Virus record (IMG/VR): IMGVR_UViG_3300035703_000036
Span: 40,663 to 104,662 of that record
Direction: 5' to 3' (one strand)
DNA from: a virus
Length of the DNA stretch: 64,000 nucleotides
This document shows, piece by piece, positions 2,883-58,624 of this stretch. The notes under the pieces were generated by a model. The model was not told where the DNA came from. It saw only the letters and a list, made by a program, of their open reading frames with translations, and made no database searches. Position numbers and translations under genes: made by a program. The number at the start of each line of letters is the position of its first letter. Within the stretch, counting starts at the first letter, position 1.

Positions 2883-5800
2883 ATGGCTGATCAACCAAAA
2901 GTTAAAAGTAGAGAGCAAATTTTAGGAGAAATGTTAGCTACATTTTTGTCTAAAACAGGTATTAACGATCTTAACGTAGGGTCTGTTAACACTTCATTTT
3001 TTGAAACAATGGCTCAGGCTATTTATAGAGCTTCTGGAGATACCTTATCTATATTAAGAGATTTTTCAGTAGATAGAGCTACGGGCGAGGCTTTAAAAAG
3101 AATTGCTACAGAAGAAAGAATTTATCCAAAATCAGCAAGAGTGGCTACTGGAAAGGTTACTATTATTGATACTTCTTTTGAAAAAATTTCAACAAAAATT
3201 TATGCAGGAGCCAACTCTCCAAACGTAGGATCTTCAATGATTCTAGTTTCTGACGCTTCTCTTTTTACTCCTGCTGGAGCTATCTATATTGGTAGAGGAA
3301 CTCCAAATGTAGAAGGGCCTATTTCGTATTCATCAATAACGCCAGTTGGAGGATATTATCAAATTAATTTATCTACTCCAACAACTAAATTTCATAATAT
3401 ATCTGAATCGGTAGTACTTTCTCAAGGTGGGCTTAGAAATATTTCAGTAGGAACCTCAGTAAGAGCGCCGGCTACAGGCGATACTGATGATATCGTTTTT
3501 TCTGTAACATCTGCTGCTGTTATTTTGGACGGAGAAAATCAAATTTCAAATGTTCCAGTCGCTGCTCAACAGCCTGGCACTGAAGGAAACGTTCCGAGAG
3601 GTGCTATTAGAGAGTTTGTGTCTCCTCCTTTTACTGGAGCTTCCGTTATCAATGAATCTCCTTTTTCTACTGGTAGAAATGAAGAAACCGATGAAGAATT
3701 AAGAGATAGAATTAAGAGATCTCGCATATCAAAAGGGCTAGGTACTTCTATTGCAATTAAAAATGCGGTACTAGGCGCTCAAGCTACAGATGAAAGCGCA
3801 GTAGTTTCATCAGACGAAATATTTTCTTTTGGATCAGACAACACAGTTCTTTATGTAGACGATGGAACTGGATATGAAGAAAAATCTTCTGGAGTAGGAT
3901 TAGAATTTATAATAGATTCAGCTCTTGGTGGAGAACAGTATTTTCAATTAGCTACTGGTGGTAGACAGACCTCTATTTCTAAAGCCACTTTAGAGTCTAT
4001 TCAGGATGGGCCTTTTGATATTATTCCTACAGATAGATTAGCTATTTTGGTCGGCGGAGTTTTAAGCGAACATATATTTAATTCAGGAGATTTTAGAAGT
4101 GAAGGTTTTGCTACGGCTTATGAAGTCGCAGCAAGTATCAATTCAAATTCTTCTTTAACTTTTTCGGCTTCAACTTCTTCAAATGGAAAAAGAGTAACTA
4201 TTCAGGCTAAAACCGAATCTAATGAAGAGCTTTTAATTACATCTCCCACAACTGGAAGAAATGCCGGAATTGCTTTATATTTTCCTTCAAACGAAATTCA
4301 AACTTTAAGACTTTATAAAAATAATAAACCTCTAAGCAAAAACGGTCAATCTGCTATTATTGAAAGTAGAAATCAAAGCGATTGGTCTAGCACTATTGGA
4401 TCAGGAGATACATTAATAATTTCTGTAGATAATACAGCTTCAATTACATATTCATTTACGGATGCTGATTTCCTAGCTGAAGGAAACTATATATCAGTAA
4501 ATAAAAACAATTCCCTTCAATCTTGGATTAATGTTATTAATAAAAAAGTTACCGGAGTAACCGCTTCTATAGATGGAAATAAAATAAAAATAATATCCAA
4601 TAAAGGCGCAAATTCTACGGCTGCTTTATCGATCGATGTATTATCAACTCTAGTAAGTAAAGGGATGTTTAGCGTATCTACAGGCCTAGTTTCTTCAGGA
4701 AAAGCTGCGGATTTTATCGTATCTAGAAATACAGCCCAAATCAAACTGACCAGCCCTTTAGAAGCTGGAGATAGCTTGGCGGCAGGTTCTGAATTTACAA
4801 AAGGATATATTTACAGTTCGCCTATTTTAGGCGGAAATTTGACTTTAACATCTGATGCTTATTTGTGGCTACTAATAGATAATGCGGACGCTGAAATTAT
4901 TAGTACTGGAGTAGTTGGAGATACATTAGTAGATGTTTCTAAACCTTTTGCCAATATAGTTAGATATACATCCAACTCACCTTCAGCATTTGCAAATGTG
5001 CAAGTTGGGGATACGGTTATTGTATGGTCTAATGAATTGAGCTTAGGAAATAGGCTTGAAGCTAAAGTTTACGCTAAAACTAATACTACTCTAGATATTA
5101 AGGTAACTTCAGCAGAATACGCTGCCGCTGTAGTGGAATCTGCAATTGTTTTTAAAGAAGGTTTTGTAGTTATTAGAACAGACAAGGCTGTACAAAAAAT
5201 AAAAATTGCTTCTGGGGCTTATAACATCAATACTATAGTTTCAATTATTAATTTACAATTAATAGGGGCTACATCTTCCGTAATTGGAGATGAGATTATT
5301 AATATTACGACTGATAGCGAAGATATCTATGGTTGTGTTTTATTGGTAGCTCAAAATGATGCTGGTAAAGGTCTTAATTTTACTTTAGCATCTTTTGCTA
5401 AAACTGAATTTTCTCAATTTGCTTTTTATGAAGCTAAAAATGCAGATAGCTATTTTCCGGCTTTTGTTCATTCTAAAATAACCGATGATAATTTTGCTGA
5501 CGTACCAAATTCTTTTATCACAAGTTTTAATTCTGCCGTAGTATTAGCTTCTGAAAATATTGATCCTAATTTTATGGTCTGTCCAGTAAACCCTTTTAGC
5601 CCTGTTGCTGATAATATATCGGACAATGAATGTGTTCAAATTAAAAATTTAAGCTCTAATACTGTAAACATCAATCAGAGTCCTTTAATTAGAAGATTAA
5701 GAATAGACGATAGATTTTATGCCGCTCTTCCTTTTGATTTTGGATATAATGATTCTGTTGTGGTAATTCTTGATGCTGACGCTACTAATAAAACTTTTCC

Positions 5801-31198: not shown

Positions 31199-32698
31199 TT
31201 ATTTTTTAAGGCCTTCCCAATCATAAACACCGTTACCCCCAAAAACTTCGTCAGCAAATCCTAATTCTACGGCTTGTTGGGCACTTAGGAATACGTCTTC
31301 TTTTTTATTCATTTGATCAATAAGCCATTTTCTAATCGTTTCTTCTTTCTTGTCTTTCATAGATCCTTGTTTTTTAATAGAATCTATATAAATGTCCAGC
31401 ATTTGTTTTTGCCTAATATTTTCCTGCTCCATTTCAGTTCGAAATTGCTTGACTGTGCCGCTCATTCCTAGGGTTCCTTCGTGAAACATGAATACAGCAT
31501 GAGGCATCATGACTCGCTTATCTGCAGCCTGTAGGATTAGTGACGACATACTTCTAGCGTGTGTGTAGACTAGGATAATGATTTTATTTGGGCACGATTT
31601 AAGGGCGTCATAAATAGCCATACCCTCTGACCAGTCGCCTCCGCAATTGTGAACCGCCACATGATTAGCTACGTATGAGTGATCTTCTTCTACTGTAATA
31701 TTGTAGACTTTTTGTCTGTAAGTATTTTTTTTAACATGTTTACTGGTAACTTTTACTTTGCAAAATCCGCTTTCTTCATCGTATTCATACCAAGTATAGA
31801 AGCTTTTAGATGCCTGATTATTATATGGATGATGCCATACAACATCGTCTACATATTCCATAATTTTAGCGTTTTCATATTTTTGTTTTTTTACTTCTAA
31901 AGATTTACCTGTCATTTTTTCTACTTCAAAAGCTACTATTTTACCTTCCTTGTAGCCAATAATATCAGGTATAACTCCAGCGCCTACTGGAACTACTTGC
32001 CATCCTTCATTTTTAAGTTTTTCACAAAAAGGCAGTATGTCCTGTTCAAGATGAGATTGTTGGCTACCTATTCCTTTTCTTTTTAATCTGTCGCAATTAA
32101 AGTTCTTTTTTCTTCTCCAAAAAGGTACTTTTTCTCCTGTAAATTCACAATCTTTTGATTCTACAAAAATAACATCATCTTCCACTACATCTTTTATTGG
32201 TACAAAAATTTTTTTACCTTCACGCTCTACCATAATAGGATGATCGGCTGTGGCGGTTATTTTTGTAGATTGGTGTTTACTTCTACCATAATATAGAGTG
32301 ACCATATCTCCTTCATACATGTGAGACATAGTATCGATAACTTTTCTATATCTACCCTTATGGGTCATTACCATATCGCCTATTTTTATATCTACAATTT
32401 TTTTATTGCCTTTATCTGTAAGAATATTGGTTTTTCTTGAAAAACAAGTTTTCATGTGAATTAAGATAGGCTCATCAGATTTTCTCATAAGGATGTTAAG
32501 ATTCTTAATAAATCTATTGGCCATAACGTATTCCACGCCAGGCTCATCTCCTTCATGGACGTCTGAGTATGTATCTTCCCCAAACAGATATAAGGCGTTT
32601 GATTTTAAATCAATATTATACTCATGACTATGCCATACTGGGTCGTCAGTCTTATATCCTTTAACATTTTTTTCTTTAATGTGCGTTAACTGACTCAC
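31199..32698 (-). CDS. ClpP-like serine protease precursor with intein
   Basis: 499-aa precursor, GTG start at 32698 overlapping the primase stop (GTGA), AGAGG 6 bases upstream. Residues 1-84 and 352-499 join to a 232-aa ClpP-fold protease. The spliced sequence HMKT-CGGDWSEGMAIYDAL matches the oxyanion-loop GG region. Ser383 (ARSMSS) is the nucleophile, His406 (MFHEGT) the catalytic histidine, and EDVFLSA supplies the Asp, followed by AVELGFADEVF. Residues 85-351 are an intein (separate entry). No signal peptide, so it is cytoplasmic. In phages ClpP-like proteases commonly process proheads, but this gene sits with replication genes, so regulated proteolysis of host or phage proteins is equally possible. 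Confidence 0.85.
   Translation of the reverse strand: MSQLTHIKEKNVKGYKTDDPVWHSHEYNIDLKSNALYLFGEDTYSDVHEGDEPGVEYVMANRFIKNLNILMRKSDEPILIHMKTCFSRKTNILTDKGNKKIVDIKIGDMVMTHKGRYRKVIDTMSHMYEGDMVTLYYGRSKHQSTKITATADHPIMVEREGKKIFVPIKDVVEDDVIFVESKDCEFTGEKVPFWRRKKNFNCDRLKRKGIGSQQSHLEQDILPFCEKLKNEGWQVVPVGAGVIPDIIGYKEGKIVAFEVEKMTGKSLEVKKQKYENAKIMEYVDDVVWHHPYNNQASKSFYTWYEYDEESGFCKVKVTSKHVKKNTYRQKVYNITVEEDHSYVANHVAVHNCGGDWSEGMAIYDALKSCPNKIIILVYTHARSMSSLILQAADKRVMMPHAVFMFHEGTLGMSGTVKQFRTEMEQENIRQKQMLDIYIDSIKKQGSMKDKKEETIRKWLIDQMNKKEDVFLSAQQAVELGFADEVFGGNGVYDWEGLKK
31646..32446 (-). other. Intein with PD-(D/E)XK-type homing nuclease domain
   Basis: Encodes residues 85-351 of the protease precursor (267 aa). 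Block A starts at Cys85 (CFSRKTNILTDKGNKKIVDI). Block B has ITATADHPIMV (T-x2-H). Blocks F/G read VYNITVEEDHSYVANHVAVHN, ending His-Asn before Cys352 (+1). Between them, residues ~215-305 lack LAGLIDADG motifs. Instead they show a nuclease-like order: SHLEQ, then GVIPDIIGYKEGKIVAFEVEK, then VKKQKYENAKIMEY and DDVVWHH. PD then EVEK resembles a PD-(D/E)XK site with a variant last motif. Insertion right before the conserved GG of the active-site loop is typical of inteins. Confidence 0.85.
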
Positions 32699-40385: not shown

Positions 40386-41449
40386 TATCTACTTCCTAAA
40401 AAGCTCATAAAATCTTCATCGCTCATCTTGCTAATATCAACACCGCCCGCTGTAGCTGTCGTTGTTGTTACGGTTGCCGCCACAGTCGCTGTTGCGGTTT
40501 CTTGTTTTGATACATTTAACAAGTTTTCATCTACTGTAAGTGTTGCTGTTTTAGCGGTAGCACTTGTAGTATTTGAAGGTAGTACTTCAGATAAATTACT
40601 AGTTTGTTTTTTTAGAGCCGGCTGTTGCGTAACGGCTGTATCCATATCTGGCTCATCATCTTCCACTGTAGATGTTGATGTATTATTTTTTCTAGCTTCT
40701 AAAATTGCAGTAAGTGCTGAAGGCCCGCCTTTAACTACTGACTCTACTTCTTCAGGACTTAATCTTAGATACATTTTATCAAGCTCTGTAGCTTCAGTTG
40801 ATAGCCTGCTCAAGATTCCATCGTCAAGCTTGTGGATAACATCTTTTTCAACCATTCCAATTCCATCTACTTTGATTTTTTCCTTAAGAACAGATACCTG
40901 ATGTAGTGTATCTAGACCTCTTCCGCTACGAGAAAAAACAAAAAAACGTCCGTTATTAACTGAGGTTGGATCGACGCCTTCAGACATTAATTTCTTAATA
41001 GTTTCATCTAGGGCCTGCTTTGCTCTATGAGGGATTTTAAGAACTCCAATTTGACCGTTTTTGTCAACCACATTCATGTGCCATTTAGAGTCTTGATTAA
41101 AGTTGTCTACCATTTCTTTAACTTTATTTAAGGTAGCTTCATCGGCGCCATTAATTTTAAGTTCATTAAGTTTTGCTTTTAATTGCTCACGACGAACATG
41201 TGCTGCTGATTCTACTTCGACCATCTTATTCTGTCTATTAACAACTCTTACATCCAAGAACGGCTTCATTCTACCTGAAGTATCTTTATACCCATATTCA
41301 ACACGGTAAAATACTGCCCAAGTTTTCTTGTCAGCTAGATCAAACATAGGAGGTAGAATACGGTATACGTTTTCCCCGTCTTTTAGTGAGAAGATGTTTT
41401 TCTTAGCACCTTGCTTTTCATAACTTGCTGTTCCAATTTTAACGCTCAT
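40385..41449 (-). CDS. gp32-like single-stranded DNA-binding protein
   Basis: 354 aa. The layout matches phage SSBs of the gp32 type. A basic N-terminus (SVKIGTASYEKQGAKKN) leads into an OB-like core with VYRILPPMFDLADKKTWAVFY and SKWHMNVVDKNGQIGVLKIP. Then comes a long Thr/Ala/Val-rich linker (residues ~265-335). The acidic aromatic tail MSDEDFMSFLGSR is the type SSBs use to dock partner proteins. No zinc-binding cysteines were seen, unlike T4 gp32. It protects ssDNA and recruits replication and recombination enzymes. An AAGGAG and an extended -10 promoter lie directly upstream. Confidence 0.75.
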   Translation of the reverse strand: MSVKIGTASYEKQGAKKNIFSLKDGENVYRILPPMFDLADKKTWAVFYRVEYGYKDTSGRMKPFLDVRVVNRQNKMVEVESAAHVRREQLKAKLNELKINGADEATLNKVKEMVDNFNQDSKWHMNVVDKNGQIGVLKIPHRAKQALDETIKKLMSEGVDPTSVNNGRFFVFSRSGRGLDTLHQVSVLKEKIKVDGIGMVEKDVIHKLDDGILSRLSTEATELDKMYLRLSPEEVESVVKGGPSALTAILEARKNNTSTSTVEDDEPDMDTAVTQQPALKKQTSNLSEVLPSNTTSATAKTATLTVDENLLNVSKQETATATVAATVTTTTATAGGVDISKMSDEDFMSFLGSR

Positions 41450-53930: not shown

Positions 53931-54590
53931 TTATTTTTTGTTTGTTTTAAGTAGCTTCTTTTGTTCTCGTAAACGCTTTCGCTCTTCTTTCTCCTCAAGT
54001 TCACGGCGTTGTTTTTGTAGATGGTTTTGGTATAGCTTTTCAAATTCTATATTCCTTTTATTGATAAACTCTTTATCGAATTCATTTTCAGGATTAAGAT
54101 GAAAACCGTTATCCATTTCTTGATCAATCGCAAAATCATTCCATCTATCTCTGAAAAAGTTTTCTTTTGTACTTTTCCAGCTATGACAACTTTTTTGTCC
54201 TTTAGGAAGATCTTTTGATTTTGTACTACATAGTACTTGAAGATTAGATATTTTGCAAAATATCCCTCTGGCGAGTTCGTCGTAAGTCATCTTTTCTTCC
54301 TTTTTCCATAGAGGAACTACAGGTTCAATGTGATCTACTTGAACATTCTTTTGGGAAAACAATCCCTCACAATGAGCGCATCGGTATCTTACTTGGTTTT
54401 TTTTGCCAACAGATCCATCTTTAAGAGTCTTAGGAGGAAGCTCTACTCTGGCGGCCTGTAGAACTTCCTTCATTTGAGGAGAAAGTCTAAAAGATCTACG
54501 CATAGCTCCTTTTATTCTTCCTCTTTCTTCAACCCACCGACCATTTTCGTCGTATAAAGATTTTTCTTTTTTATTTAGTTTCTTCGGCAT
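53931..54590 (-). CDS. HNH nuclease
   Basis: 219 aa. The HNH site is complete: RYRCAHCEGLFSQKNVQVDH (zinc Cys pair and first His), IEPVVPLWKK, then KISNLQVLCSTKSKD with the Asn and zinc Cys, and QKSCHSWKS. Flanks are Lys/Arg-rich, and the C-terminal tail is a basic coiled coil (QKQRRELEEKEERKRLREQK). It overlaps the upstream gene by 20 bases, so it is co-translated. It may be a free-standing homing nuclease near nrdA/nrdB, a favourite target of such elements, or a nuclease for host or phage DNA processing. Confidence 0.8.
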   Translation of the reverse strand: MPKKLNKKEKSLYDENGRWVEERGRIKGAMRRSFRLSPQMKEVLQAARVELPPKTLKDGSVGKKNQVRYRCAHCEGLFSQKNVQVDHIEPVVPLWKKEEKMTYDELARGIFCKISNLQVLCSTKSKDLPKGQKSCHSWKSTKENFFRDRWNDFAIDQEMDNGFHLNPENEFDKEFINKRNIEFEKLYQNHLQKQRRELEEKEERKRLREQKKLLKTNKK

Positions 54591-57640: not shown

Positions 57641-58624
57641 CTAGTAAGAGCGAATAATATTCTCTCGTCTAGATTTCGTTAAACTTTCTTTAACTTCACT
57701 GATTTTCTTTTCAATTTCTTCCATTGTTAATTTAGAATTTGCAGCACAAGTTTTTTCTTTTCTAGTTTTAGTTTCTTCATCAGAGTTATAGTAGTAAGAT
57801 CCTGAAGATTCTGTTTTAGTACATTCTGGCCCAAATTGACCGTTATTTTTAATAAAATCATTTAGACTCATATTTCCTTTATTTGTTTGAATATTTACCG
57901 TAATACTTAAAGGCGCAGTATTCATAGGACAATTAGAGTATTCTACTGTTAGAGTGAACAAGAAAGCGTCGTAATTTACCGAATGTCTACCTTCTCTTAA
58001 CGAAGCGTCACATTTTACGTTTACAACAGCGTCAGCATATCCTTGCTCAACAGCATCTTTTCCAGTTAACCAAAGTTCATTTTCATAAGCAGATCTGTAT
58101 GATTGTAGAGTTTGTTTTCCATTAGTACGATCAACAGTAATTTTATCTAACTCATCAATTCTGCGTAACCATAAACCATATCTAGAATCAAGCTGAGATA
58201 AACCGCCGCCAAACTCACCAGTAAAGCCACCTTTAGCTTTATGAGACATTAGAACTCCGTTTCCAACAATCAATCTTTCGCCTAGATTTTGAACAGCTTG
58301 AAAGCCCATCGAAGCCGCAAATAAAGTAATGGTATGAACAGGACGATTTAAACCTTTAACAAATTCAAAAAGTTCGAGACCCGCCTGAATGCTTCCTCCT
58401 GGCGTATCTAGAAATAAATAGATCGGATATCCATTTGGAAGATCTGAATCAATTTTCATGATTTGCTGCATTACAATAGATACTGATTCGCTATTAAAAT
58501 CTTGATTTAGAATAACAGTGTTGTCAGCGGATAAAGTAATTTCTTTGTTTGCCGTTTTCTTTTCTTCTGCCATGACTGCAAAACTGAAAGTCATAGCAAT
58601 GATTAAGGTTACAATTTTTTTCAT
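57641..58624 (-). CDS. Exported ClpP/SppA-fold serine protease
   Basis: 327 aa, AAAGGAG before the ATG. Signal peptide MKKIVTLIIAMTFSFAVMA, then a ClpP-type domain: oxyanion loop FLDTPGGSIQAGLELFE (Gly76-Gly77), nucleophile Ser105 in FAASMGFQ, His128 in LMSHKAKGG, and the ELWLTGKDAVEQGYADAV segment where ClpP has its Asp (here Asn/Glu). A C-terminal extension of ~130 aa contains three cysteines and a charged coiled coil (TMEEIEKKISEVKESLTKSR). A ClpP fold with a Sec signal is exceptional: ClpP normally acts in the cytoplasm with an AAA+ partner, so this one probably degrades peptides or membrane proteins in the periplasm, like SppA/NfeD relatives. Confidence 0.75.
   Translation of the reverse strand: MKKIVTLIIAMTFSFAVMAEEKKTANKEITLSADNTVILNQDFNSESVSIVMQQIMKIDSDLPNGYPIYLFLDTPGGSIQAGLELFEFVKGLNRPVHTITLFAASMGFQAVQNLGERLIVGNGVLMSHKAKGGFTGEFGGGLSQLDSRYGLWLRRIDELDKITVDRTNGKQTLQSYRSAYENELWLTGKDAVEQGYADAVVNVKCDASLREGRHSVNYDAFLFTLTVEYSNCPMNTAPLSITVNIQTNKGNMSLNDFIKNNGQFGPECTKTESSGSYYYNSDEETKTRKEKTCAANSKLTMEEIEKKISEVKESLTKSRRENIIRSY

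Follow-up and report, generated by a model that had tools for sequence, protein, structure and literature searches.

What interrupts the ClpP-like protease gene of this phage directly before its active-site loop, and what kind of nuclease does the interrupting element carry? The gene lies in the window, meaning the whole 64,000-nucleotide stretch that we analyzed (positions 40,663 to 104,662 of IMG/VR record IMGVR_UViG_3300035703_000036), which is contained in a virus record of 104,662 bases. The record encodes a DnaE-type polymerase, a UvsX/RecA-like recombinase, a DnaB-like helicase, a primase, a ribonucleotide reductase and tail genes. Judged by its polymerase, the closest named relative is Myxococcus phage Mx1, and the 35% identity there points to no more than a distant relationship with isolates. 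The precursor is a single frame of 499 codons on the minus strand (31199-32698), with a GTG start and GAGAGG upstream, and is laid out as follows.

31199..32698, minus strand: whole precursor, ClpP-like protease with intein, 499 aa (GTG start, stop included)
32447..32698, minus strand: N-extein, residues 1-84, ending ...LIHMKT (alignment with 23 uninterrupted relatives)
31199..31645, minus strand: C-extein with the Gly-Gly loop (Pfam CLP_protease, invariant columns)
31550-31552, minus strand: protease catalytic Ser, 3' of the intein, in the C-extein
31481-31483, minus strand: protease catalytic His, 3' of the intein, in the C-extein

The C-extein matched the Pfam CLP_protease profile (E 2e-18), and the best description of the C-terminal part among PHROG families was head maturation protease. 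In the numbering of the joined protein, S116, H139 and G86-G87 were invariant in 19 aligned sequences, so that profile, triad Ser and His, and Gly-Gly loop together mark the host protein as a ClpP-like serine protease. The window holds a second ClpP-like protein of 327 aa (57641-58624, minus strand) with an apparent signal peptide, MKKIVTLIIAMTFSFAVMA, and TPGG, SMG and SHK motifs; it lies near SbcC-like and SbcD-like genes and is possibly an exported ClpP-like protease. Also in the window, an HNH endonuclease gene (53931-54590, minus strand), possibly a free-standing homing endonuclease, adjoins the gene for the ribonucleotide reductase small subunit.

We then considered the insert itself, the features of which are listed below.

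31646..32446, minus strand: intein, 267 aa, precursor residues 85-351 (Intein_splicing, intein_Cterm, empty sites in relatives)
32444..32446, minus strand: Cys1 (Cys85), first splicing nucleophile (alignment with other phage inteins)
32156..32446, minus strand: N-terminal splicing (Hint) half, intein residues 1-97 (alignment with 16 other phage inteins, AlphaFold, Foldseek)
32240..32251, minus strand: block B, T66-x-x-H69 (H69 invariant in 17 inteins)
31646..31720, minus strand: C-terminal splicing half, blocks F and G, ending VAVHN (intein_Cterm above cut-off)
31646-31648, minus strand: Asn351 (intein Asn267), last intein residue
31643..31645, minus strand: Cys+1 (Cys352), part of the protease family's own KTCGG (motif counts over 102 loci)

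Class 1 inteins are defined by Cys or Ser at position 1, a TxxH in block B, a C-terminal His-Asn and Cys, Ser or Thr at +1 (PMC4031507). All of these residues are present as Cys1, T66xxH69, His266-Asn267 and Cys+1, and the insert exceeded the cut-offs of both Pfam Intein_splicing PF14890 (49.6 bits against 35.8, E 5e-13) and NCBIfam intein_Cterm TIGR01443 (26.1 bits against 15.6). AlphaFold, supplied with other phage inteins as an alignment for the N-terminal half only, modelled the Hint half at a pLDDT of about 80-95 over most of its length. Foldseek matched this half to a hedgehog Hint domain and to the MchDnaB-1, M. smegmatis DnaB and gp41-1 inteins at probability 1.00, with weak E-values (0.004 to 0.04) because the remaining model is poor. 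The sequence-only reading had drawn an intein from Cys85 to Asn351, with Cys352 at +1 (31646-32446), directly ahead of the Gly-Gly loop and of both catalytic residues, Ser and His; these coordinates proved exact, the order of the protease residues stands, and the expectation of a Hint fold is borne out by profile and structure search alike. Judged by sequence, this phage ClpP-like protease holds a canonical class-1-type intein, which is predicted to splice.

The intein sits between KT and CGG, with the Gly-Gly loop and both catalytic residues downstream. When we scanned viral contigs twice with the joined protease as query, all 102 related loci, some of which share a contig, were uninterrupted at this site; the larger scan used two search patterns, one of which does not reach across the site, leaving room for interrupted copies to surface. 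The closer relatives among these loci (35-61% identity) carry MKTCGGDW or variants of it at the site, and the order helicase-primase-protease is kept in 4 of the 102. So many empty alleles indicate that the insert is neither a constitutive domain nor a product of chance. The sequence-only reading had named homologues carrying the insert constitutively as evidence against an intein, and 0 of the 102 loci do so. An extra protease domain or an assembly artefact would fit an insert that was seen once, and nothing else speaks for either; the full set of splicing residues, the intein models above cut-off, the uninterrupted relatives and the one open frame all speak against them, leaving this explanation scarcely credible and, for a constitutive domain, refuted at the level of sequence.

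The position of the insert also bears on why it is there. Conditional splicing is known for some other inteins, and this one might be retained because such splicing regulates the protease: as it lies ahead of the Gly-Gly loop and of both catalytic residues, the precursor should have no activity until it splices. Inactivity of the precursor is, however, expected of any active-site intein; homing favours conserved sites and accounts for the position, and with an intein at this site in 0 of 102 relatives, regulation by an intein is not a family trait. We consider retention for regulation improbable. A mobile intein would have found the site ready for use, since Cys+1 is the residue common to the protease family there and no alteration of the host protein was required. 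The site has no striking pseudo-palindrome: the best dyads nearby match at 7 of their 14 pairs, where the gene as a whole averages 3.6 and peaks at 9. Neither a second copy of the intein nor a relative of its nuclease was found in 18 related viral records or in the viral-contig, genome-contig, phage and plasmid collections, where the matches were other inteins that share just the Hint part, or free-standing archaeal resolvases.

Between the two splicing halves lies the domain that sets this intein apart.

31721..32131, minus strand: middle nuclease-like domain, intein residues 106-242 (Pfam Hjc, own Hjc profile, hhalign)
31844..32023, minus strand: Hjc-aligned stretch, intein residues 142-201 (own profile, 30.1 bits)
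31964..31969, minus strand: PD (P160-D161), opposite the invariant PD of Hjc (alignments)
31916..31927, minus strand: E174-V175-E176-K177, opposite the E-V-K of Hjc, with Glu at the Lys position (alignments)
32045..32047, minus strand: E134 within the predicted first helix, one turn ahead of the Hjc helix Glu and possibly its counterpart (sequence and AlphaFold, in a putative register)

LAGLIDADG and HNH identities were rejected, as neither gave a Pfam match in the middle domain up to E 10. Searched alone, the domain had Hjc (PF01870) as its sole Pfam match to E 10 (E 2e-4, 21.7 bits against a gathering score of 21.1), a score that recurred in a six-frame search; with the whole intein as query it was 20.3 bits, under the gathering score. 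Its best PHROG match was Holliday junction resolvase (E 0.004), and a search of 50,697 phage records (E<=10) returned only 8 matches, namely 4 archaeal viruses each recorded twice, with proteins annotated as Holliday-junction resolvases. Our own Hjc profile, made from six resolvases that include the query's own best matches, scored 30.1 bits, a value that 5000 shuffled copies did not approach (13.3 at best), and hhalign against five Hjc sequences gave 93.9% (E 1.6e-7). The Hjc match spans about 60 residues, with the C-terminal third of the domain outside it, and within it D161 of the PD and E174 of the E-x-K align with the active-site Asp and Glu of Hjc. The sequence-only reading had proposed a nuclease lacking LAGLIDADG and HNH motifs, with a PD followed by an EVEK as in PD-(D/E)XK enzymes and the Lys shifted by one; each of these points holds, and the match can now be sharpened to archaeal Hjc. 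Assignment of the middle domain to the PD-(D/E)XK family, and specifically to the neighborhood of archaeal Hjc, thus holds at the level at which it was made, that of sequence.

The one departure within the active site concerns the catalytic Lys, which is invariant in the five resolvases compared; the aligned residue here is Glu176, with Lys177 directly after it (FEVEK). Because the Lys is absent from its aligned position, we call the domain Hjc-like rather than filing it as Hjc, and with Glu in its place the activity of the nuclease could be changed or lost. This substitution, along with the fact that a second copy of the intein was seen in no relative, could mean that a real intein holds a decayed or DNA-binding-only PD-(D/E)XK relic, having kept splicing and lost homing. 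On the other side, the metal ligands Asp and Glu are kept, a Lys follows directly and the frame is intact. BamHI is among the active enzymes that have an E-x-E at the corresponding place, so Glu176 does not by itself imply an inactive nuclease. We regard a relic as possible, if on the whole unlikely.

Structure models of the middle domain are consistent with a PD-(D/E)XK fold and are not proof of it; the fold is supported by the sequence. The first AlphaFold model, made from an alignment holding no Hjc or other relative of the middle domain, gave a helix (128-146) and strands at 150-154, 161-166 and 169-178 at a pLDDT of about 67-87 and was unreliable past intein residue 195. In it the PD begins strand 2 and EVEK lies within strand 3, as in PD-(D/E)XK enzymes. 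With five Hjc sequences added, AlphaFold returned a helix, three strands, a helix and two strands at a pLDDT of 45. The order of elements in both models, of modest to low confidence, agrees with the alpha-beta-beta-beta-alpha-beta core of the family. Foldseek on the low-confidence model of this domain found nothing significant, and a Holliday-junction enzyme ranked 7th (probability 0.38). A single short match and a low-confidence model that lacks a significant fold match would suit an unrelated fold that resembles Hjc by chance. Yet Pfam, PHROG and phage-record searches all name Hjc, shuffled sequences never come close and the catalytic Asp and Glu stand at aligned positions, which makes chance resemblance very unlikely.

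We next compared the intein with other mobile elements. Nuclease-bearing inteins mostly carry LAGLIDADG domains and less often HNH domains. Intein nucleases are generally described as LAGLIDADG (PMC5050341), and the LAGLIDADG or HNH inteins of the mycobacteriophage set in that study have the same Hint domain and block layout, with the nuclease between blocks B and F, whereas the nuclease here is of Hjc-like PD-(D/E)XK type. Among 22 distinct related phage inteins gathered with the Hint part as query, Intein_splicing was matched in 21, LAGLIDADG_3 in 10 and Hjc in 0. The inteins of Gordonia phage Barsten and Bacillus phage G matched end to end, but we set them aside as counterparts, their middle parts lacking the PD/E-x-K arrangement.

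Several observations on other phage intein loci stand apart from this comparison. Several inteins (L111, L118, L129, L131, L133 and L136, from about position 3001), a good many of them within terminase-like genes, seem to have in common a middle part with a motif like LhYIGrFGLI...KM.T...TKLK that has no Pfam nuclease match, and this shared part is a possible unrecognised intein-associated domain. A terminase-like phage frame of 1800 codons (L002 and L003, 963-6362) holds three apparent inteins. In Bacillus phage G, an annotated homing endonuclease gene (gp330; L029, 2611-3408) directly follows an intein-carrying DnaE gene.

Inteins in ClpP are already known; Wang and Liu reportedly described one in the chloroplast of Chlamydomonas eugametos in 1997. 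ClpP inteins have been reported from chloroplasts and bacteria (PMC5784728), and these green-algal chloroplast and bacterial cases likewise place an intein within a ClpP-type protease. The host gene lineage differs here, being phage ClpP-like with a KTCGG loop, and the nuclease-bearing eukaryotic inteins of the same survey carry LAGLIDADG where the phage intein is Hjc-like. PD-(D/E)xK is listed among the homing endonuclease families of group I introns (PMC3943268). One of these, I-Ssp6803I, likewise places a PD-(D/E)XK nuclease in a mobile self-splicing element, with the difference that its carrier is an RNA intron and the carrier here an intein; a PDB search gave no sequence match between it and the middle domain. 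With archaeal Hjc (PF01870; 2eo0, 1hh1, 1gef) and the Hjc of Acidianus rod-shaped virus 2, the domain shares the active-site PD and E, the predicted strand order and about 60 residues at about 29-45% identity; it differs in being embedded in an intein, in the Glu at the Lys position, in a helix Glu that is out of register and in its C-terminal part. In the literature searched, which took in few subscription journals, we found no description of an intein with an Hjc-like or PD-(D/E)XK domain. The nuclease type is the new part of this finding, and we make no claim to the first of its kind.

Collectively, these data make it probable that the insert is a mobile class-1-type intein whose Hjc-like PD-(D/E)XK nuclease acts as a homing endonuclease now or did so recently. 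Such an intein would have invaded the most conserved stretch of the protease gene (KT/CGGDW), and following translation it would excise itself through Cys1, His-Asn and Cys+1 chemistry to leave an intact protease, while an unspliced precursor would keep the Gly-Gly loop and catalytic residues apart from the N-terminal part. The nuclease would cut the uninterrupted gene of a co-infecting relative, and recombination would then copy the intein in. It is from the residues, empty alleles and Hjc relationship described above that we infer splicing, DNA cleavage and homing for this intein. A bolder version, to which we give little credence, holds that the homing nuclease descends from Hjc, has an E-x-E(K) active site, selects its DNA by structure and resolves junctions; it would both open the empty allele and help to resolve the recombination intermediates by which the intein is copied.

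If that version were true, a junction-resolving homing nuclease of Hjc type would be a new class of intein homing enzyme. An Hjc-like PD-(D/E)XK domain in the nuclease slot would reveal an intein scaffold able to take up a nuclease of recombination, a resolvase. It would also offer a testable example of DNA repair enzymes giving rise to homing endonucleases, as well as a new nuclease housed in a compact splicing element of 267 aa.
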